From positions 1 through 64,000 of the IMG/VR virus record IMGVR_UViG_3300020123_000219: 64,000 nt of DNA, one strand, 5' to 3'. Position numbers and translations under genes: made by a program. The stretch comes from a virus. The notes beneath the pieces are model-generated. The model saw only the letters and a list, made by a program, of their open reading frames with translations, was not told where the DNA came from and searched no databases. Below are positions 641 to 20,833 of this stretch, piece after piece. How positions within the stretch are numbered: position 1 is the stretch's first letter; each line of letters opens with the position of its first letter.

Positions 641-816
641 TATACTGGCAGGTTTGGTCGTTACTGCCGTCGACGCCCCGCGACTGTCCCGGTCATGCCA
701 AGCCCGCTGCCGACTGGCCCACCCGCCGCTCCGTGCCGCACGCCGACTACCCGCGCCATCGCCCGCATTCCTCCACGTAGTACCCGGATGCGTGGTACTA
801 TCCGCAAGTATCCGAC
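641..816 (+). repeat. Repeat array D: leader hairpin plus ~30-nt spaced CGAC motifs
   Basis: A stem-loop at 646-669 (TGGCAG / CTGCCG, one G-T pair, 12-nt loop GTTTGGTCGTTA) is followed by CGAC motifs at 671, 681, 711, 744 and 813, with a degenerate copy near 776. The motif is followed by a C-rich block (CGACTGTCCC, CGACTGGCCC, CGACTACCC). The array ends just before the ribosome site of the 834 gene, so it would be that gene's 5' leader. No convincing ORF covers it. It is the smallest of four related arrays (see 3372, 4159 and 6541). Function unknown. Confidence 0.6.
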
Positions 817-833
817 CAGGGAAAGGAACAGGA

Positions 834-1082
834 ATGGACGTAACGCTGATGCGGGCACGCGACACCCTCAGCATTCCCGGCGGCGCCGACCTCATGGCAC
901 CCGAGCCGTGCACCCTCACCCTCACCACAGCTCCCTGCCCGTCCGTGCTCCCGGACCACGCGTGGGCGCGGGGACGGCACGCAGACGGAACCCCCCGCAC
1001 CGTGCTCATCCCCCGCATCATGCCGCCCGCCACGGCCACCAGGCGCGGCGGCACCGACCCGGTCCGCGCCGGGATCATGTGA
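834..1082 (+). CDS. Small protein of unknown function (82 aa)
   Basis: ATG at 834 follows a clear AGGGAAAGGAACAGG purine-rich site, so this start is preferred over longer upstream frames that read through array D. The protein begins MDVTLMRARDTLSIPGGADL and is rich in Pro, Thr and Ala, with no recognisable domain. It is the first gene of a tightly packed + cluster reaching to 2863; the next gene begins 2 nt after its stop. Confidence 0.6.
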   Translation: MDVTLMRARDTLSIPGGADLMAPEPCTLTLTTAPCPSVLPDHAWARGRHADGTPRTVLIPRIMPPATATRRGGTDPVRAGIM

Positions 1083-1084
1083 CC

Positions 1085-1204
1085 ATGACCGAGGAAACCT
1101 GCGTCTGCCAGATCGACGGCGGCCAATGCCAGAACAACGCCGTAACCGGCGACGACTACTGCAGCCTGTGCCTGAACGACAGGCACGCCCACCACAACAA
1201 CTGA
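1085..1204 (+). CDS. Tiny Cys-rich protein (39 aa)
   Basis: MTEETCVCQIDGGQCQNNAV... has five Cys and several His residues (C-x-C...C...C-x2-C...HAHH), the pattern of a small metal-binding knuckle. It starts 2 nt after the preceding stop. Codon third positions are mostly C or G, as in its neighbours, which supports coding. Function unknown. Confidence 0.6.
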   Translation: MTEETCVCQIDGGQCQNNAVTGDDYCSLCLNDRHAHHNN

Positions 1205-1234
1205 GAACACGCGCCGGGAAAGGAAAACACGAAA

Positions 1235-1576
1235 ATGGGTCACGGAACGTACACCTTCGGCAAGATGATCGAGATAGCCGCGCTCACCGGCTTCGGCACC
1301 GCCATGCTCGCCGTCATGGTCCTGCTCGCCGGATGGACCCGCGCCGGCCGGCACGCAGCCGAAGCTGCCCTGGCCGCCCGCGAGACCCGGTGCGCTGCCG
1401 CAGGTTGCGCCCACTCCCACGCCGCCAGCAGCCAGGACATCGGAACCCCGGACGACGACGACGCGACCATCAACTGGCTCACCTGCCTCAGCAGCGACAC
1501 CCCCGCCCAATGGCAGGGAATCGACGCGGAACTCAGCCGCGTCCTCGCCTGGGCCGACCGGGTACTCGCCGGATGA
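1235..1576 (+). CDS. Small membrane protein, single N-terminal helix (113 aa)
   Basis: The ATG follows a GGGAAAGGAAAAC site. Residues ~11-33 (MIEIAALTGFGTAMLAVMVL) form one hydrophobic helix, followed by a soluble, Ala-rich tail with two Cys. Its last bases overlap the ATG of the next gene (ATGA). It could be a membrane-anchored accessory protein. No family is recognised. Confidence 0.7.
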   Translation: MGHGTYTFGKMIEIAALTGFGTAMLAVMVLLAGWTRAGRHAAEAALAARETRCAAAGCAHSHAASSQDIGTPDDDDATINWLTCLSSDTPAQWQGIDAELSRVLAWADRVLAG

Positions 1577-2223
1577 AACAACCCCACGCCGTCCCGCCCG
1601 GCAAGCCGTGGACCAGCCGGAAAGCCCGCCGCACCTGGGGACCTCTGAAACTGGGGCGGCTGGCCGCCAGGCTGGTCCGCAGGCCGGACCCGGAGCGGTC
1701 CCACCCCGGTTACCGGACGTGGGAAGAAGTCAAGGACAAGCGCGCCATGCACGACCAGTGGGCACGCGACCACAAGGCACGCGGCTGGCTGATCAGCCGG
1801 GCCTACTCCCTCGACCGGTGGGTGTCGTCCGTCCTGCACCTCACCTGGTACCGCAAGACCCGCACCTTCATCACCCGGGGCCGCAAAGGCTGGGCACCCC
1901 GCGACATCTGGTCCCTCGACCACTACCTCACCCGGGTCATCGGCGACGAGTTCGCGTGGGCCGCCGGCCTCATCGGCGACACCGTCCTCGAACTCGACCG
2001 CACCAGCCACTCCTACCCCAGCGACGGCATGACCCCCGGCCAGTGGCGCGACATCCTCCTCAACATCAGCGTCCCCCTCCGCGCCTACAAGCACCTCTGG
2101 GAAGAAAGCACCCGCGAAGACCGCACCTACAAGGAAAACCGGGCAGCAGAGGAAAAGATCATCAACGACGCAGCAGACGCGTTCCGGCTCCTCGCCGACC
2201 ACCTCCCCTCACTCTGGGACTAA
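1573..2223 (+). CDS. Unknown protein, basic N-terminus (216 aa)
   Basis: Starts at the ATGA overlap with the preceding stop. The first ~50 residues are strongly basic. The remainder is Trp- and Tyr-rich and mixed-charge (RAYSLDRWVSSVLHLTWYRK; EFAWAAGLIGDTVLELDR) and looks like a folded soluble protein. Strong G/C third-position bias supports this frame over the long overlapping frames. No domain is recognised. Confidence 0.75.
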   Translation: MKQPHAVPPGKPWTSRKARRTWGPLKLGRLAARLVRRPDPERSHPGYRTWEEVKDKRAMHDQWARDHKARGWLISRAYSLDRWVSSVLHLTWYRKTRTFITRGRKGWAPRDIWSLDHYLTRVIGDEFAWAAGLIGDTVLELDRTSHSYPSDGMTPGQWRDILLNISVPLRAYKHLWEESTREDRTYKENRAAEEKIINDAADAFRLLADHLPSLWD

Positions 2224-2228
2224 CCGCT

Positions 2229-2486
2229 GTGAAACCCGCAGGCCCGATCACCGAACCCCACCCGATCGAAGAATGCTACGGGTCGAAACTCCACTGCTGG
2301 TCGCATGACGTTGACGAACCCGACCAGCCGGCCTACATCTCGTGTTTCGAGTGCAAGCACGTTTACCGGTCGGCTGAGGAACTAGTCGCCGAGCACAACA
2401 AGCACCTAGACCCGGCATGGAATGAACCTGCCGTGACAGACCCGGAACTTGTGCACTGCTGCCCCCTGTGCATCCACGACTGGTAA
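2229..2486 (+). CDS. Small Cys/His-rich protein, zinc-ribbon-like (85 aa)
   Basis: Probable GTG start at 2229, five bases after the previous stop. Two C-x2-C type pairs (ISCFECKHVY and HCCPLCIHDW) plus CYGSKLHCWSHD suggest metal binding. The upstream frame can be extended, but its composition there is that of a shadow frame. Function unknown. Confidence 0.65.
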   Translation: MKPAGPITEPHPIEECYGSKLHCWSHDVDEPDQPAYISCFECKHVYRSAEELVAEHNKHLDPAWNEPAVTDPELVHCCPLCIHDW

Positions 2487-2500
2487 CGAGCAAAGGAAAC

Positions 2501-2863
2501 ATGAAACTGTACCTGGCAGGCCCGATGCGCGGCTACCCCGAATTCAACCACCCGGCCTTCCACGCCGCCGCCGCCGAACTCCGCGCCTCCGGCCACGCAG
2601 TGTTCAACCCCGCCGAGCACGCCGAGTCACTCGGCATCAACACCACAGGAATGACCGGCGACCCCAGCCACGAAGAACTAGCCGGGTACTCGCTGCGGGA
2701 ACTCATCGCCGCCGACCTGGCCTGGATCTGCGCCAACGCCGAAGCGATCGCCCTGCTCCCCGGATGGCAGGACTCACTCGGCGCCGCAGCCGAGGTAGCA
2801 ACAGCCAAAGCACTCGGCATCCCGGTCGGGTACGCCCGGGACTTCCTCGCCAACCCCCGATGA
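2501..2863 (+). CDS. DUF4406 / nucleoside 2-deoxyribosyltransferase-like protein
   Basis: 120 aa. MKLYLAGPMRGYPEFNHPAF is the typical N-terminus of DUF4406 proteins: a Rossmann-like fold related to nucleoside deoxyribosyltransferases, with the YLAGPM motif. A second conserved part is ADLAWICANAEAIALLPGWQ (~residues 69-88), matching the family's D-xx-x-C-D/E-xx..L.GW pattern. The role in phages is unproven; nucleotide metabolism or base modification is possible. The ATG follows AAAGGAAAC. Last gene of the first + cluster; a strong hairpin follows. Confidence 0.8.
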   Translation: MKLYLAGPMRGYPEFNHPAFHAAAAELRASGHAVFNPAEHAESLGINTTGMTGDPSHEELAGYSLRELIAADLAWICANAEAIALLPGWQDSLGAAAEVATAKALGIPVGYARDFLANPR

Positions 2864-2905
2864 CTAACCCTGACTGCGGCTGCGCTCGCGCAGCGGAACG
2901 CTGGA

Positions 2906-2944
2906 AGTTGAGGCCCAGGTCATCGCACGACCTGGGCCTCAACT
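2906..2944. terminator. Perfect 16-bp hairpin after the first + gene cluster
   Basis: Arms at 2906-2921 and 2929-2944 (GTTGAGGCCCAGGTC core) with a 7-nt loop. There is no T-run on either side, so it is a hairpin terminator or transcript-end stabiliser rather than a classical intrinsic terminator. It separates the 834-2863 cluster from the promoter of the Lsr2 gene. Confidence 0.6.
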
Positions 2945-2958
2945 GTGTCCCGGGGGTC

Positions 2959-2987
2959 TCGACCTGACCCGTGAACGGTGGTATGAT
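2959..2987 (+). promoter_or_regulatory. Promoter for the Lsr2-like gene
   Basis: TCGACC at 2959-2964 and TATGAT at 2982-2987 are separated by exactly 17 nt. Transcription would start near 2994, which fits a TTG start at 3034 and argues against the upstream GTG at 2971 lying in the same frame. Confidence 0.6.
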
Positions 2988-3033
2988 CGGTACGGTAAGC
3001 GGCAGTGAAACAGAAACTATAAGGCTACAGGCA

Positions 3034-3360
3034 TTGGCTCGCACGCACATCGTGACCGACGACCTTGACGGAACCCCGGCCCAGGAGACCATCCAGTTCT
3101 CCATCAGCGGGAAGTATTACGAGATCGATTTGTCCCACGCGAACGCTGACACGTTCCGGGAAGTGTTCCAGCCGTGGATCGACGCGGCCAGGTCCCGGAA
3201 CCCGGCCCGGCAGCTTCCCCGGTCGCGGGATTCCCGCGCGGAGTCCGCTGCGATCCGTGACTGGGCCAGGCACACGGGCGTGGACGTGAAGGACCGGGGG
3301 AGGCTCCCGTCGGGCGTGAAACGCCAGTACTATAACCGGATCACTTCCGCCGCCGCTTAA
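3034..3360 (+). CDS. lsr2: Lsr2-like nucleoid-associated protein
   Basis: About 108 aa, close to cellular Lsr2 (~112 aa). The N-terminal dimerisation part reads RTHIVTDDLDGTPAQETIQF with the typical D-D-x-D-G-T. The C-terminal DNA-binding domain has AIRDWARHTGVDVKDRGRLP and an RGRLP hook in place of the usual RGR. Lsr2 binds AT-rich DNA and bridges it, silencing foreign genes; phage copies are thought to counter or mimic host Lsr2. The TTG at 3034 is chosen because it fits the 2959-2987 promoter and the family's N-terminus. Repeat array A starts 11 nt after its stop. Confidence 0.85.
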   Translation: MARTHIVTDDLDGTPAQETIQFSISGKYYEIDLSHANADTFREVFQPWIDAARSRNPARQLPRSRDSRAESAAIRDWARHTGVDVKDRGRLPSGVKRQYYNRITSAAA

Positions 3361-3371
3361 AAAAGAAACCT

Positions 3372-3690
3372 CCTGCCGGTACGGTCATCACGGCAGGCAG
3401 CAAACGACTCTCCATTCCAGTACAGGCCGCTGCGTGGCGACTTGTCCGACCAGGGCACGGCGCTTCGACTAATCGTCGCTATCCCGGTCGGCCCCGACTC
3501 TGCCATTCACGACCAACCCGATCCGACGGGTCCGTGCGCGCCGCCTCCCTCGCCGACATGTCAGGCCCACGCGCTTCATGACCGCCGACCTGTCAGACCC
3601 GCGCGTACCACAGCATGTGACTACCCTGCCCACGCCATTCCGTCGACGACTACGCGACTCCCTGCCCGCCCCACCCGCACCCGACTTCCC
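3372..3690 (+). repeat. Repeat array A: leader hairpin plus about ten phased CGAC motifs
   Basis: Hairpin 3372-3397: stem CCTGCCG/CGGCAGG, loop GTACGGTCATCA. CGAC or TGAC motifs follow at 3405, 3438, 3466, 3495, 3524, 3554, 3586, 3618, 3647/3655 and 3682, mostly 27-33 nt apart. After each core comes a short C-ending block (CGACTTGTCC, CGACTCTGCC, CGACATGTC). Unit lengths are not multiples of 3, so they do not encode peptide repeats. The array strand is purine-poor. It begins just after the Lsr2 stop and ends at the stop of the convergent 3691-4125 gene. Confidence 0.75.
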
Positions 3691-4125
3691 TCACTCGTCA
3701 GAAGGACCGAAATCCTCAGGGAAAAGCACATCGGCTGTAGGCCATTCCCCGTGCGCGAAGAACTCGACTTCTGCCACGTCGTCCCTGCCCCGGAACACGA
3801 ACTTGCGGACGCGGGGGCACGCCCGCAGGTGCAGGCCGCCGCACCACATGCATCCCTCGCCGTTCGCGAACCGTTCCCGCACGGACGCCCGCTGTTCCTC
3901 GTCGAGGTCTTCAGGGTCCGCGCGTTCCGGCCCGGTCATCGGGTCCGCGAGCGCCTGCTCGCGGATGTCGGCGAACCCACGGAGGCGATCCTCGTGGCTG
4001 CGTATCATCGCCGCTGACAGGGCGATGGCGGGAGCGAGCTTGCTGACCTGGTCGTCGTCGAGGACGCGGCCGAGGGTTTTCCTGAGCACTGCTTCCAGCG
4101 CGGGCCATTCAGGTGAACCAGCCAT
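3691..4125 (-). CDS. Unknown protein with a Cys-x2-Cys motif (144 aa)
   Basis: Starts with ATG at 4125 behind AGGAAAGG. The helical, charged N-terminal part (DDQVSKLAPAIALSAAMIRS) is followed by GEGCMWCGGLHLRACPRVRK, a possible metal site. The gene is isolated between arrays A and B. Its position beside terL would suit a terminase small subunit, but no helix-turn-helix or small-terminase signature was recognised, so this is speculation. Confidence 0.7.
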   Translation of the reverse strand: MAGSPEWPALEAVLRKTLGRVLDDDQVSKLAPAIALSAAMIRSHEDRLRGFADIREQALADPMTGPERADPEDLDEEQRASVRERFANGEGCMWCGGLHLRACPRVRKFVFRGRDDVAEVEFFAHGEWPTADVLFPEDFGPSDE

Positions 4126-4137
4126 GAGCGCCTTTCC

Positions 4138-4146
4138 TGATACAAT
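4138..4146 (+). promoter_or_regulatory. Possible extended -10 element ahead of repeat array B
   Basis: TGATACAAT at 4138-4146 fits an extended -10 (TGn followed by TAtAAT with one mismatch). A start near 4153 would place the array B leader hairpin (4159) at the very 5' end of the RNA. No good -35 is seen. Confidence 0.35.
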
Positions 4147-4158
4147 TTAACTGACACG

Positions 4159-4831
4159 CCTGCCGGTACGGTCATCACGGCAGGAGACAAACGACCCTCC
4201 CTTGCCACGCGTGCTCCGACTCCGCCAGCCAGCTCCGGACAATAGCCGACTTCCCGCGCCTTTGCGGCTCGCCGCGACCACCCATGCCCGCGCCATTCCT
4301 TGCGCCGCCAACCGAGCCGACATGCCTGCCCGGCGCGTGACCCACTTCCGACATGACCCTCCCGTTCCCGCCACCCCCGACTCTCCGCTGCGACGCATAG
4401 CCCCGTGACTAACCGGTGCGGTACCGCCCATTGCCGACATGCCGCCGCCCGCGCCCGTCCCGTATCCGACCGGCCAGGCCATCACATGCCAGACCACCCG
4501 ACTTGCCGTTCCATTGCAGTCCCGGCCCGACCTCCCAGGCCGACTCGTCGCAAGCCCGACTCTCCATTCCTGCCCGATGCCGCGCCCCGACGTGCCGCGC
4601 CGCTCCTGCGCATGCGACTGCTCCGGGCATCACACTGCGAACCGACCAACCGCTCCTACGCGAAACGCTCCCGACTCCCCAGCTCAGGCCCACTCCCTTC
4701 CCGACTCCCCAGCTCAGCCCAGGCCCGACTTGCCTATCCGATCCCGCGCCGACCTGACTTGCCGGCCCGATCCCGCGCCGACATGCCGTTGCTGCGCCCT
4801 CCACCGCGACTCTCCATCGCCCTGCTGACCG
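4159..4831 (+). repeat. Repeat array B: leader hairpin plus 22 phased CGAC motifs
   Basis: Leader hairpin 4159-4184 is identical in stem and loop to that of array A. CGAC (once TGAC) motifs start at 4192, 4217, 4247, 4275, 4318, 4349, 4378, 4406, 4435, 4467, 4499, 4528, 4557, 4588, 4615, 4643, 4672, 4702, 4726, 4750, 4779 and 4807: 24-32 nt apart except one 43-nt step. Common unit beginnings are CGACTTGCC, CGACATGCC, CGACTCTCC and CGACTCCCC; the rest of each unit varies. The array runs up to the terL stop codon and is convergent with terL. The long + frames across it are artefacts of a stop-poor, C-rich strand. Confidence 0.8.
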
Positions 4832-6502
4832 CTACCGGAACAACGCCGACGCCGCGCCCTGAAACGGTGACGACACCTCCGCGTGCGCGAGCATGTCCCC
4901 CGCCGGGTACGGCTCCGGTTCCCCCTCATCCAGAACCGGGGCCTGCCGGCACTTCGGGCACGCCGGATGCCCCGCCCCGTAGTACTTGTGGCCGCAGAAC
5001 CCGCACTCCGCCACCCCGTACACGTCAGCCCACGACCCCGCCTGCCGCCAGAACGCCTGCACCACGGCGTCCCCCCGGTCCGTTGACCGGCCGATCCTGG
5101 CCCGGATCTCGTCCTTCGTCTCCATCCGCAGCACCCCGCCGGACAGCGGTTCCTTGCTGTGCGGCGCCGACAGGTCCGACAGCAGGTCCTCGTCATCAGG
5201 CAGGCACACCGTGGACCCAGCCGACGGGTCCAGCATCTCCCGCAGCCCGTACCAGGCCCCTACCCTGCAATTCAAGAAGGAAAGCTCGCCGGTCTTGTCC
5301 CTCTTCCGGGTCCGCGCGGACGCCGTGAACGGCTCGGCCCGCGCCCCCATCTCCCGCAGCCGGTCCAGCACCCCCGCCCCGATCCCGATCACGTCCACCA
5401 TCGCGGTCGCCTCCGGGTCCGCGTCGAGGATGCCCTTCACCCGCCCGGTCACCGCCATCGTGTCTTCCTTCGCGTACGTCCGCAGCTCGGTGATCACGTC
5501 GCCCTTGCGGATCGCTATCGCGGTCTTGTCCTCCCCCATACGCGCCGGGTCCACCCCGACCACGTGCGGCTCCCCCGCGTGCAGCAGCCCCGCGCCCTCC
5601 CGCTCGTACCAGCGTTCCACCGCCGCCTCGGCCCACGCCAGCGGAATGATCGCATCCTCATCTCCCGCGTAGAACTCGCCCAGCACGCGGTTCTGGTACA
5701 GCGACGAGATCTCGCCCCACTGCTTCTTCCGCTGGTCAGCCCACTGCTCGCTGATCCTCAGCGACGAGATCGCCTCAGCGAGGGTGACGTGCCGGGGCCG
5801 CCAGTCCTCGTAGCCGGGGCGGCGGGAGCAGATGTCGTAGAACCGTCCCTGCGGCTCCCCTGGCGTGGACAGCGCCAGGGCGTAGGCTTCCCCGGTCCCG
5901 GAGAACGCGCCCTCGCACGCGTCGAACGTGTTCGCGGGGATCGACTTCGACTCGTCGTAGATGAACAGGAGGCTGTCGGCGTGGCAGCCCTCGATCAGGG
6001 CCGGGTTGGAGCACGCGGCAGCGAACGCCTGCCCGTGCTGCAGGTTGACGTGCAGGGACAGCATCTCGCGGGGCTGCAGCGGGTAGTCCCGGATCTTCTC
6101 CCAGTTCAGCCGCTGCGACCATTTCCGGATCTCCGGCCACAGGTAGTGGATGAGCTGCCGCCACGCCCCTGCCGTGGTCACGATCTTCCAGTCCGTTCCG
6201 GTCGCGTCCCTGGTGAGCGCGAACCACCACACGGTCAGCGCCGCGATGCAGGACTTCCCGAGCCCGTGGGGGCCTCGCACCGCTTCCCGCTTGTGGAGGG
6301 ACAGCCCCCCGATGATGTCTTCCTGGTAGGGGGTCAGGCCGGGGCCGTCGCGGAAGTCGACGCAGTCATGGATGAACGCGACCGGGTCGTCGTAGTAGAC
6401 GGCGACGCCTTTCTTGACCTGCGCTGCGCGCTGCTTCAGTGACCGCAGGTAACGGAGGCGTTCGAGCCTGATCTCGTCGAGTGACCGTGGAGCCTGGTCC
6501 AA
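4832..6502 (-). CDS. terL: Terminase large subunit
   Basis: 556 aa. The N-terminal packaging ATPase shows Walker A RGPHGLGKS (76-84) and Walker B LLFIYDES (178-185). The C-terminal nuclease shows VGVDPARMGEDKTA (from ~315; first acidic residue D317), VDVIGIGAG (D370) and RGDAVVQAFW. An unusual C-terminal zinc-ribbon-like segment follows (CGFCGH...CPKC, ~residues 500-520). TerL translocates DNA into the prohead and cuts the concatemer. The TTG start at 6502 is preceded by GGGAGG. No terminase small subunit is recognised next to it and the portal is not in the window. Repeat arrays flank it on both sides. Confidence 0.95.
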   Translation of the reverse strand: MDQAPRSLDEIRLERLRYLRSLKQRAAQVKKGVAVYYDDPVAFIHDCVDFRDGPGLTPYQEDIIGGLSLHKREAVRGPHGLGKSCIAALTVWWFALTRDATGTDWKIVTTAGAWRQLIHYLWPEIRKWSQRLNWEKIRDYPLQPREMLSLHVNLQHGQAFAAACSNPALIEGCHADSLLFIYDESKSIPANTFDACEGAFSGTGEAYALALSTPGEPQGRFYDICSRRPGYEDWRPRHVTLAEAISSLRISEQWADQRKKQWGEISSLYQNRVLGEFYAGDEDAIIPLAWAEAAVERWYEREGAGLLHAGEPHVVGVDPARMGEDKTAIAIRKGDVITELRTYAKEDTMAVTGRVKGILDADPEATAMVDVIGIGAGVLDRLREMGARAEPFTASARTRKRDKTGELSFLNCRVGAWYGLREMLDPSAGSTVCLPDDEDLLSDLSAPHSKEPLSGGVLRMETKDEIRARIGRSTDRGDAVVQAFWRQAGSWADVYGVAECGFCGHKYYGAGHPACPKCRQAPVLDEGEPEPYPAGDMLAHAEVSSPFQGAASALFR

Positions 6503-6540
6503 TTACCTCCCTTACAGGGGTAACTGTACCGTCTCGCGGT

Positions 6541-6822
6541 GTCGGTGAGGAGTGCAGAGCAGGGACTTGGCCAGTCGGGCGCGGGACGCGCTGACGTGGA
6601 AAGTCGGGCGCGAGGGGAACTGGCCAGGCAAAGTCGGGGCGGAGCGGACAGCAACGGCTGGCGGAGTCGGGCCGGCGCTGGGCGGGATAGGCACGTCGGA
6701 ACGGGGCGGAGTGGACTGGCGGGACAAGTCGGTGTGGCAATGACCGGCCAGGACTAGTCGATTCGCCCGGAGCTGCGGTGAGTGGGATTGTCGTGACGGG
6801 ATGTAGCGACCGAACCATCCCG
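6541..6822 (-). repeat. Repeat array C: leader hairpin plus nine phased CGAC motifs, upstream of terL
   Basis: Read on the - strand. The hairpin at 6822-6797 has stem CGGGATG/CATCCCG and loop GTTCGGTCGCTA. CGAC motifs then start at 6793, 6760, 6731, 6698, 6669, 6636, 6606, 6577 and 6544, spaced 33, 29, 33, 29, 33, 30, 29 and 33. The stem differs from arrays A and B on both arms yet still pairs, and the loop keeps the same length and 8 of 12 bases. Typical units start CGACTTGTCC, CGACTCCGCC or CGACTTTGCC. It lies between the stop of 6837-7388 and the terL ribosome site, in the terL direction. Confidence 0.8.
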
Positions 6823-6836
6823 GTGAATACTTCCGG

Positions 6837-7388
6837 TCAGGAGGAGCTGACGACCCTGAGGTGCCGACCGTCACTGGCGGGACGTTTCGGCTTGGCCGCG
6901 CGCAGCTTCCCGGCCGTGGCCGTTGCCTTCTGCGGGGGCCACGGCTTGCCTGCTGCCTCGGCTTCCCTGCGGCGCCGCTCGGTGTTGTCCCGGGTGTTCT
7001 TCTTCTCGCAGTCAGTGCACTGGGTCCGCAGCTTTTCCGGGTGCTTCTTGTTCGCGTAGAACGTCAGCTCCGGGTTGTCGCGGACGTTGCGCTTGCAGGA
7101 GCTGCACGTCCGGGGCGGCGGCTCGGGGTCCTCGCCCCGCAGGGCGCGGGCCTCGTTCCTCATCTCCGCAGCGCTGCGCCTGGCCGCGCGGACCAGCACC
7201 TCGTGCTTGCGGACCGTGAGTTCGTCGCGGCGGCGGTCCCGCCGCGACCAGTCAGTTTCCAGCGTGATCAGCGCGTCGACCTTGGCCATGATCTCGTCGG
7301 CGTAGCCAGCGAGACCGAGCGCGAGCGTGCCTTTCAGGTCAGCCCGCGCTTCCAGTAGCTCTTTCGCGTAATCCCTTTCCGTTCCCAT
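6837..7388 (-). CDS. Unknown protein with a zinc-finger-like module (183 aa)
   Basis: A helical, charged N-terminal half (LLEARADLKGTLALGLAGYA; many Arg/Glu) is followed by TCSSCKRNVRD...RTQCTDCEKK, a two-pair Cys motif at roughly residues 114-146, and a basic Ala/Lys-rich tail. Encoded just upstream of array C and terL in the same direction. DNA binding is plausible; a terminase small subunit or array-binding factor are only guesses. Confidence 0.75.
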   Translation of the reverse strand: MGTERDYAKELLEARADLKGTLALGLAGYADEIMAKVDALITLETDWSRRDRRRDELTVRKHEVLVRAARRSAAEMRNEARALRGEDPEPPPRTCSSCKRNVRDNPELTFYANKKHPEKLRTQCTDCEKKNTRDNTERRRREAEAAGKPWPPQKATATAGKLRAAKPKRPASDGRHLRVVSSS

Positions 7389-19373: not shown

Positions 19374-19928
19374 ATGGCAAGACGCGACTACGTGGCCGAC
19401 ATGACGGCCTACATCAAGGAACGCATCCCTGAAGGGGACTACGTCACGGCCAAGGTGGCGAAGCTGATCTTCGAGCAGGTCAAATCCGACGACCCTGACC
19501 TGCTCAGCGGCTGGCTCATGGCCTGCGGGCCGTCGCTGATCAGCAGGCAGATCGGCCACGCCCGCCTCGCGAGCCACGCGACCGCGCGCCGGTCCCTGAA
19601 GAGGGAACGGTTCGCGGCGGCGGCAGCGGCCTTCAGCCAGGGAAACCCCGAGCCGCTGAAAGATTACCTGGACGAGCTGCAGTACCGCACCGCCGGTAAC
19701 GTGATCAAGAAACTGGGGAACCTGACCAGCGCGGACTGCCGGTTCATCGCGTCGACCTGCCACGAGGCGTCCGCTACCTACAACTTCGAGGCCGTCTTCA
19801 TGGACGCGCTCGCACGCAAGGTACCGGAAGGGGTCGTGCGGGACCACCTCACCGACGAGCAGGTCGCCGAGCTGAGGTCCAACGTGGCTGACGCGATCCA
19901 GCGCAGGTCGGCTGTCATCAGCGCCTGA
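19374..19928 (+). CDS. Unknown helical protein (184 aa)
   Basis: Starts MARRDYVADMTAYIKERIPE; largely helical with a basic middle (ARLASHATARRSLKRERFAA) and LTSADCRFIASTCHEASATY. Encoded between recT and a 290-aa unknown, so a role in DNA metabolism is plausible, but no domain is recognised. Confidence 0.75.
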   Translation: MARRDYVADMTAYIKERIPEGDYVTAKVAKLIFEQVKSDDPDLLSGWLMACGPSLISRQIGHARLASHATARRSLKRERFAAAAAAFSQGNPEPLKDYLDELQYRTAGNVIKKLGNLTSADCRFIASTCHEASATYNFEAVFMDALARKVPEGVVRDHLTDEQVAELRSNVADAIQRRSAVISA

Positions 19929-19960: not shown

Positions 19961-20833
19961 GTGGCTGTTGCCATTCCCCCGGCCGGGAACGTGTTCAAGG
20001 AATATGACGAGCGCGCATGGCCGTACAAGTTCACCGTCGGATTCCGCATCGGCGCCATCGCCGGCGGCATCCCCTCCGACCCGATGATCGCCGAGTCATG
20101 GATCAAGACGAAGATCGCGGGGAAAAGCGAGGAAGATTACCGGGCCATGGTCGCGCAGACCATGCTGGACCGCAACGTGACCCTCGACGAGGCCGTAGCC
20201 CAGGCCAACATCATGAAGAACCTGAACGGGTTCAAGCGGGACACCGAGCTGGGCATGTACATCGAGGGCCGGCAGGTCAAGGCAGCGATGAAGGAAGCAG
20301 TGTCCGTTGCCTGCGCGTCCCCGGAGAACAAGCTGGACATCAGGTCATGGGGCAACACCCGCAAGTACCTGACCAACTACCTCCCCGAGCACGTGTTCGT
20401 CGACGACCTGCGGGTCTACCTGTTCCACGCCTCCGACCACCCCCGCGAGGGCTGCGCCTCGGACTGCGAGGACTGCAAGGAAGGACGCGTGTACAAGGCA
20501 GGCGACCCGTTCCACGAGAAGACCCGGGTGATGCAGACCTTCCCGGTGAACGAGAAGACCCGCCAGTCAGGCATCCAGTACACCGAAGTGTGCGAGGACG
20601 TGTACATCGAGTTCACGGTCCGCACCGACCACCCGTTCACCTACGAAGAGTGGGCGATGATCTGGCTGACCGGCCAGTACCAGGGCGTCGGCGCGCTGCG
20701 GGCGATGGGCATGGGCGTCTACGAGCCCGTCAAGTTCACGCAGATCCGGGGACCGGCCATCAAGAAGGCCGGCAAGTCCGGCGGCCCCAAGAAAAAGGAA
20801 GCCGCAGGCGCAGGCGAGGATGAAGAAGACTGA
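19961..20833 (+). CDS. Unknown protein (290 aa), probable DNA-metabolism module
   Basis: Behind AGGGAAAAGGAAAGG. MAVAIPPAGNVFKEYDERAW, a helical centre (SEEDYRAMVAQTMLDRNVTL), a Cys cluster CASDCEDCKEG and a Gly-containing GVGALRAMGMGVYEPV segment, then a charged Lys/Glu tail. It looks well conserved in composition but I cannot assign a family. Confidence 0.75.
   Translation: MAVAIPPAGNVFKEYDERAWPYKFTVGFRIGAIAGGIPSDPMIAESWIKTKIAGKSEEDYRAMVAQTMLDRNVTLDEAVAQANIMKNLNGFKRDTELGMYIEGRQVKAAMKEAVSVACASPENKLDIRSWGNTRKYLTNYLPEHVFVDDLRVYLFHASDHPREGCASDCEDCKEGRVYKAGDPFHEKTRVMQTFPVNEKTRQSGIQYTEVCEDVYIEFTVRTDHPFTYEEWAMIWLTGQYQGVGALRAMGMGVYEPVKFTQIRGPAIKKAGKSGGPKKKEAAGAGEDEED

Follow-up and report, generated by a model that had tools for sequence, protein, structure and literature searches.

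VIPR (Viral Interference Programmable Repeat), described in 2026, is a phage RNA-guided system built on a CRISPR-type RAMP (PMC13142463). According to the accessible portion of that description, its vrRNAs have a 5-nt period with a hypervariable dinucleotide and a GGY scaffold, comprising 9-16 repeats and a conserved 3' tail; seven types are distinguished, SUSP1 being type II, and 'a related consensus' to GGY is allowed (PMC13142463). Here we analyse a soil phage known from IMG/VR virus record IMGVR_UViG_3300020123_000219, whose positions 1 to 64,000 (the whole stretch of 64,000 nt, hereafter the window) carry four arrays of a CGAC motif. These arrays very probably specify the guide RNAs of a phage-encoded VIPR-like system, in which a RAMP encoded at 19961-20833 would be the effector. 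The arrays and their leaders are as follows, the scores being those of a hidden Markov model (HMM) explained below:

647-668, + strand: leader hairpin of array D, 5-bp stem, loop GTTTGGTCGTTA
671-762, + strand: array D, about 3 units, HMM score 7.4, marginal
3372-3397, + strand: leader hairpin of array A, 7-bp stem, loop GTACGGTCATCA
3405-3690, + strand: array A, CGAC plus NNxyC pentamers, HMM score 22.5 (over 3405-3582)
4159-4184, + strand: leader hairpin of array B, loop GTACGGTCATCA, the same as in array A
4192-4831, + strand: array B, about 22 units, HMM score 77.9
6541-6793, - strand: array C, 8-9 units, HMM score 42.4
6797-6822, - strand: leader hairpin of array C, 7-bp stem, loop GTTCGGTCGCTA

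A first-pass annotation of this DNA had described hairpin-led CGAC arrays phased at 24-33 nt, and both features held. The four leaders have stems of 5-7 bp and 12-nt loops that are mutually related. On the array strand the density of CGAC is 37.7 per kb, versus 7.7 per kb per strand in the rest of the 88-kb genome. With exact dinucleotide shuffles as the null model, the CGAC pairs spaced 24-33 nt apart numbered 7 in array A (1.1 in shuffles, p 0.0025), 18 in array B (1.7, p<0.0005) and 8 in array C (0.24, p<0.0005), confirming that enrichment and spacing are genuine in these three; array D is marginal, with 2 pairs (0.14 in shuffles, p 0.015) and a p of 0.0075 for its CGAC count. The HMM, a 5-state periodic model with a CGAC reset, was scored on the genome and on six shuffled genomes. 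The ceiling in the latter was 5.7, and no further stretch of the 88-kb genome got a score of 10.

The hidden order of the arrays is a 5-nt period, NN-x-y-C, that is restarted by CGAC, which serves only as punctuation. At offsets 3, 8, 13, 18 and 23 from CGAC a C was found in 48, 43, 42, 40 and 39 of 48 units, and the lag-5 autocorrelation of C was 0.20-0.30 in arrays A, B and C (p<0.0005), array D giving no such signal. In the HMM parse the arrays read CGAC + (NNxyC)n, at times with a 4-mer inserted ahead of the next CGAC, so that the unit lengths decompose as 29 = 4+5x5, 33 = 4+5x5+4 and 24 = 4+5x4. Because of this arithmetic the spacing is not helical, and the earlier suggestion of same-face protein binding at three helical turns was abandoned. 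In the pentamer logo of the window, positions 1-2 carry 0.02-0.03 bits, i.e. they are near uniform, and position 5 is C in 98% of cases. The same logo was found in about 40 other loci, where position 4 differs by clade (CC, TC or AC). Coding repeats were rejected as an explanation of the arrays: the units do not have lengths divisible by 3, and the RAMP is missing from control loci whose coding repeats are 30 nt long. The dinucleotide bias of NN was not diagnostic, and a comparison of NN with scaffold divergence in the orthologous arrays of loci L050 and L066 showed no clear difference.

The first-pass annotation had named no effector gene, and one is present, together with a conserved neighbour:

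19374-19928, + strand: conserved accessory gene, candidate vap, 184 aa, all-helical predicted model
19961-20833, + strand: Vipr-like RAMP effector, 290 aa, assigned by profile, hhalign, AlphaFold and Foldseek

SUSP1 Vipr as sole query gave no match in this phage. The gene was reached through relatives of SUSP1 Vipr encoded beside arrays, which led to a second subfamily (about 220-290 aa), and the profile of this subfamily matched a single protein of the phage, that of open reading frame 19961-20833 (E 5e-78). In a profile-profile comparison (hhalign) the RAMP family matched Vipr at 94%, E 1.3e-7 over 135 columns, the match to the single SUSP1 sequence being weaker (E 0.003). Weak profile matches of the protein are CRISPR RAMPs, and its AlphaFold model (predicted local distance difference test score, pLDDT, 87; predicted template modelling score, pTM, 0.81) had Csm3/Cas7 subunits as its best PDB matches in Foldseek, at about 1e-6. 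The protein is thus a Vipr-like RAMP of CRISPR type. Its gene follows a RecT-like gene and the 184-aa gene, homologues of which adjoin the RAMP in at least 7 other loci. The accessory protein showed no similarity to SUSP1 vap1, and its fold had no match in the PDB. The gene at 3691-4125, between arrays A and B, was rejected as the effector; it has no family match and is otherwise present only in a sister strain.

When IMG/VR was scanned for runs of three units in succession, 118 stretches came up. Many were coding repeats, and a subset proved to be non-coding arrays that follow this grammar in unrelated phages. CGAC arrays adjoin the RAMP gene directly in about 25 viral loci, nearly always on the same strand. 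Among viral records of at least 30 kb, to which the association test was limited, the RAMP was present in 12 of the 13 with CGAC arrays and in 0 of 18 controls (p 9e-8). In some other phages the arrays lie remote from the RAMP, as in a 153-kb record with seven arrays in the 11.9 kb examined and the RAMP elsewhere on it. The module also occurs in 8 of the 299 genomes sampled from the order Streptosporangiales (Actinomadura, Nonomuraea, Thermoactinospora). In Microcystis phage Mae-JY09, the only isolate phage found with it, the accessory gene, the RAMP and the array follow one another; this module, at L141:37174-38868 (PP395641.1), is annotated in the deposited record as hypothetical proteins only. 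As separate observations on the wider family, hypothetical proteins of intensively studied actinophages, namely mycobacterio- and gordoniaphages (L127, L128, L129, L130, L131) are related to SUSP1 Vipr and correspond to PHROG 4652, several of these loci having G-periodic sequence on the gene strand. At L020:8123-8550, pentamer arrays next to a Vipr-family gene are of NNGAC type on the strand opposite to that gene, the gene-strand GTC/NN being another scaffold variant.

This linkage bears on the possibility that the arrays are binding sites acting as DNA, for a centromere, packaging or nucleoid protein. The regular CGAC spacing would suit such sites, and both terL and an Lsr2-like nucleoid protein gene adjoin the arrays; the latter (2971-3360) stops 11 nt 5' of the leader hairpin of array A, which follows it on the + strand. 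Binding sites of this kind do not account for a 5-nt period with uniform NN, however, and the arrays follow the RAMP rather than terL or Lsr2: the RAMP is missing from TurkishDelight and phiAsp2, in which terL has relatives, and the terL regions read there showed no array. We therefore regard this explanation as very improbable.

Strand orientation is the next point on which readings differ. The opposite strand could be the RNA, its pattern then being GGVNN-like and nearer the published GGY/NN, and the hairpin forming a 3' tail or terminator. Reverse-complementing NNxYC indeed gives GRVNN, near GGYNN, and the hairpins would then be 3', as are the structured tails in which vrRNAs end according to the accessible published text (PMC13142463). 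Yet in about 25 loci CGAC and the RAMP gene are on the same strand, and the guide strand is the gene strand in SUSP1. Moreover, in L033, L034, L097 and L114 the array is upstream of the RAMP and 8-25 nt separate it from the RAMP start. A promoter would not fit in between, and the CGAC strand must therefore be transcribed there. Transcription from the opposite strand is accordingly unlikely in our judgement, and by the sequence layout the CGAC strand would be the one transcribed in the window too.

For the content of the guides we applied the published 1-nt skip, by which the NN pairs are read with one target base skipped between them (PMC13142463). Two prophage arrays, L146 (2290 onward) and L148 (2805 onward), have a guide 1 in common, with 19 of 20 NN bases equal and differences at 10 of 18 scaffold positions 3-4. 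Decoded in this way, guide 1 reads CTxGAxCAxCGxT[TC]xGGxCGxATxCAxCG, which corresponds to LEQRFGRIHR. Against 299 genomes it gave 29 sites at no more than one mismatch, one of them exact, versus 0 for the reversed pattern; since the target motif is conserved, these matches are not independent. Among viral matches, 12 of 16 fell in the same gene. PADLOC assigns the target gene to the Hma defence system, as its helicase HmaA, and every match read on HmaA is in frame, with the wobble positions skipped and synonymous codons varying. Several of the remaining matches are the related motif LEQRMGRIHR of another SNF2-type helicase, and at wrong skip lengths, used as controls, the matches of guide 1 scattered over unrelated genes. 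In two genomes a second guide of L146 fits IEQRNGRVDR, a sequence of DrmD-like helicases, with a single mismatch. In anti-phage helicases (HmaA; DrmD-like) the peptides decoded from the L146 and L148 guides correspond to motif VI, which is conserved.

A decodable guide also bears on the idea that the arrays are a degenerate, functionless minisatellite spread among phages. Turnover of units would fit it: in the near-identical strain L003, array C (L003:42-388) is longer by three units than that at 6541-6793, two of the three extra units are unmatched in all other DNA examined, and near-duplicate units are present within array B. Substitutions between the window and L003 were more frequent in the arrays (12/1085) than in genes (4/2495), half of the array changes adjoining an indel, and the excess was not significant (p 0.08) once indel-adjacent changes were removed. 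Against it, a fifth base that is C in 98% of pentamers coexists with a uniform NN, and the same grammar recurs in unrelated phages, tightly tied to one protein family. The minisatellite explanation is thus largely contradicted by the pentamer logo, the RAMP association and the guide matches, and we give it hardly any weight.

The first-pass annotation had also considered repeat RNAs with variable parts, resembling guide arrays, and the 5-nt code, the linked RAMP and the decodable guide of relatives support this. We accordingly favour arrays that encode guide RNAs, with the following putative mechanism. The arrays would be transcribed from the CGAC strand, and the RAMP would coat the guide RNA, each pentamer taking one subunit, which would hold the fixed xYC bases and leave the variable NN exposed. 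Consecutive NN pairs would base-pair with DNA, one target base being skipped between pairs, and the CGAC would be a fixed 4-nt mark dividing guide units, the 5' hairpin acting as a leader or cap. The bound complexes may then silence genes of host defence or of rival elements. By analogy, the guides of relatives suggest a counter-defence function.

Several points weigh against this interpretation. A unit in the window has no more than 5-7 NN pairs, or 10-14 specified nt, versus the 9-16 repeats of published vrRNAs, the gene-strand scaffold is unlike GGY, and the arrays are 13-19 kb away from the RAMP. Guide 1 was chosen from many unit pairs by NN similarity. A third guide, shared by L110, L137 and L148, gave no excess over the reversed control (25 genomes) and was discarded as evidence; two decoded guides of phage L047 had no viral match. 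The unit spacers of the window, whose search against host genomes and phages the first-pass annotation had proposed, showed no excess at any skip from 0 to 3 in a unit-level search of 1.09 Mb, and no target was found.

As for the surroundings of the arrays, a TACAAT -10-like box lies at 4141, immediately 5' of the array B hairpin, and array C lies between gene 6837-7388 (- strand) and terL (- strand), in the same direction as both. A candidate array at 76.2-76.7 kb of the genome turned out to be coding and tRNA-like sequence. An apparent tRNA-like cluster is located there, beyond the window (G000:C1:76200-77400; L004:11500-13700, minus strand), and ARAGORN detected no tRNA genes in the window.

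With these results the recently described non-contiguous RNA guides reach a large set of actinobacterial viruses, where the guide alphabet is different and punctuation is built in, and many natural guides are now usable for testing the decoding rule. The shared guides on defence helicases raise the possibility that phages turn off host immunity in this way, a role absent from the accessible published text on VIPR.

Compared with known systems, the arrays resemble those of TIGR-Tas (PMC12045711) in being phage-borne guide arrays with short variable parts, but the effector linked to them is a RAMP rather than a Tas-family protein, no search aimed at Tas having been made, and they follow a pentamer code. 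With class 1 CRISPR-Cas (Csm3/Cas7 RAMPs) they have in common the RAMP fold and the turnover of array units between strains, whereas long identical repeats are lacking, only CGAC and every fifth C being constant, and the grammar is 5-nt rather than 6-nt, without long uninterrupted spacers. The closest likeness is to VIPR, as far as its accessible description goes (PMC13142463): a phage-encoded single-domain RAMP, pentanucleotide repeats with hypervariable NN, an accessory gene beside the RAMP as a candidate vap, and a probable 1-nt skip over the wobble base, which has computational support for two guides of relatives and not for those of the window. By the same source, the scaffold differs (xYC on the gene strand here, GGY in VIPR), a CGAC tetramer restarts the frame every 5-7 pentamers, and the arrays reach about 110 pentamers with a 5' hairpin, in contrast to vrRNAs of about 100 nt with a 3' tail. 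The accessory gene is unlike SUSP1 vap1, decoded guides of relatives match host defence genes, and guide arrays that flank vipr in VIPR are here 13-19 kb off, though adjacent in about 25 relatives. The element is therefore not undescribed in kind, as the first-pass annotation had it, VIPR having been published in 2026; the xYC scaffold and the CGAC punctuation, on the other hand, are absent from the accessible text of PMC13142463. Since neither the GGY scaffold nor the layout of a vrRNA with a tail, as given there, is found here, we call the system VIPR-like without assigning it to a described type. Tentatively, and with somewhat less than an even chance of being right, it may be a VIPR-like type in its own right, distinguished by an xYC/NN code and by multi-guide arrays that CGAC punctuates, which serves actinophage counter-defence against conserved codons of the host anti-phage helicases HmaA and DrmD, the wobble skip preventing synonymous escape and the arrays of this phage acting in trans from several loci.
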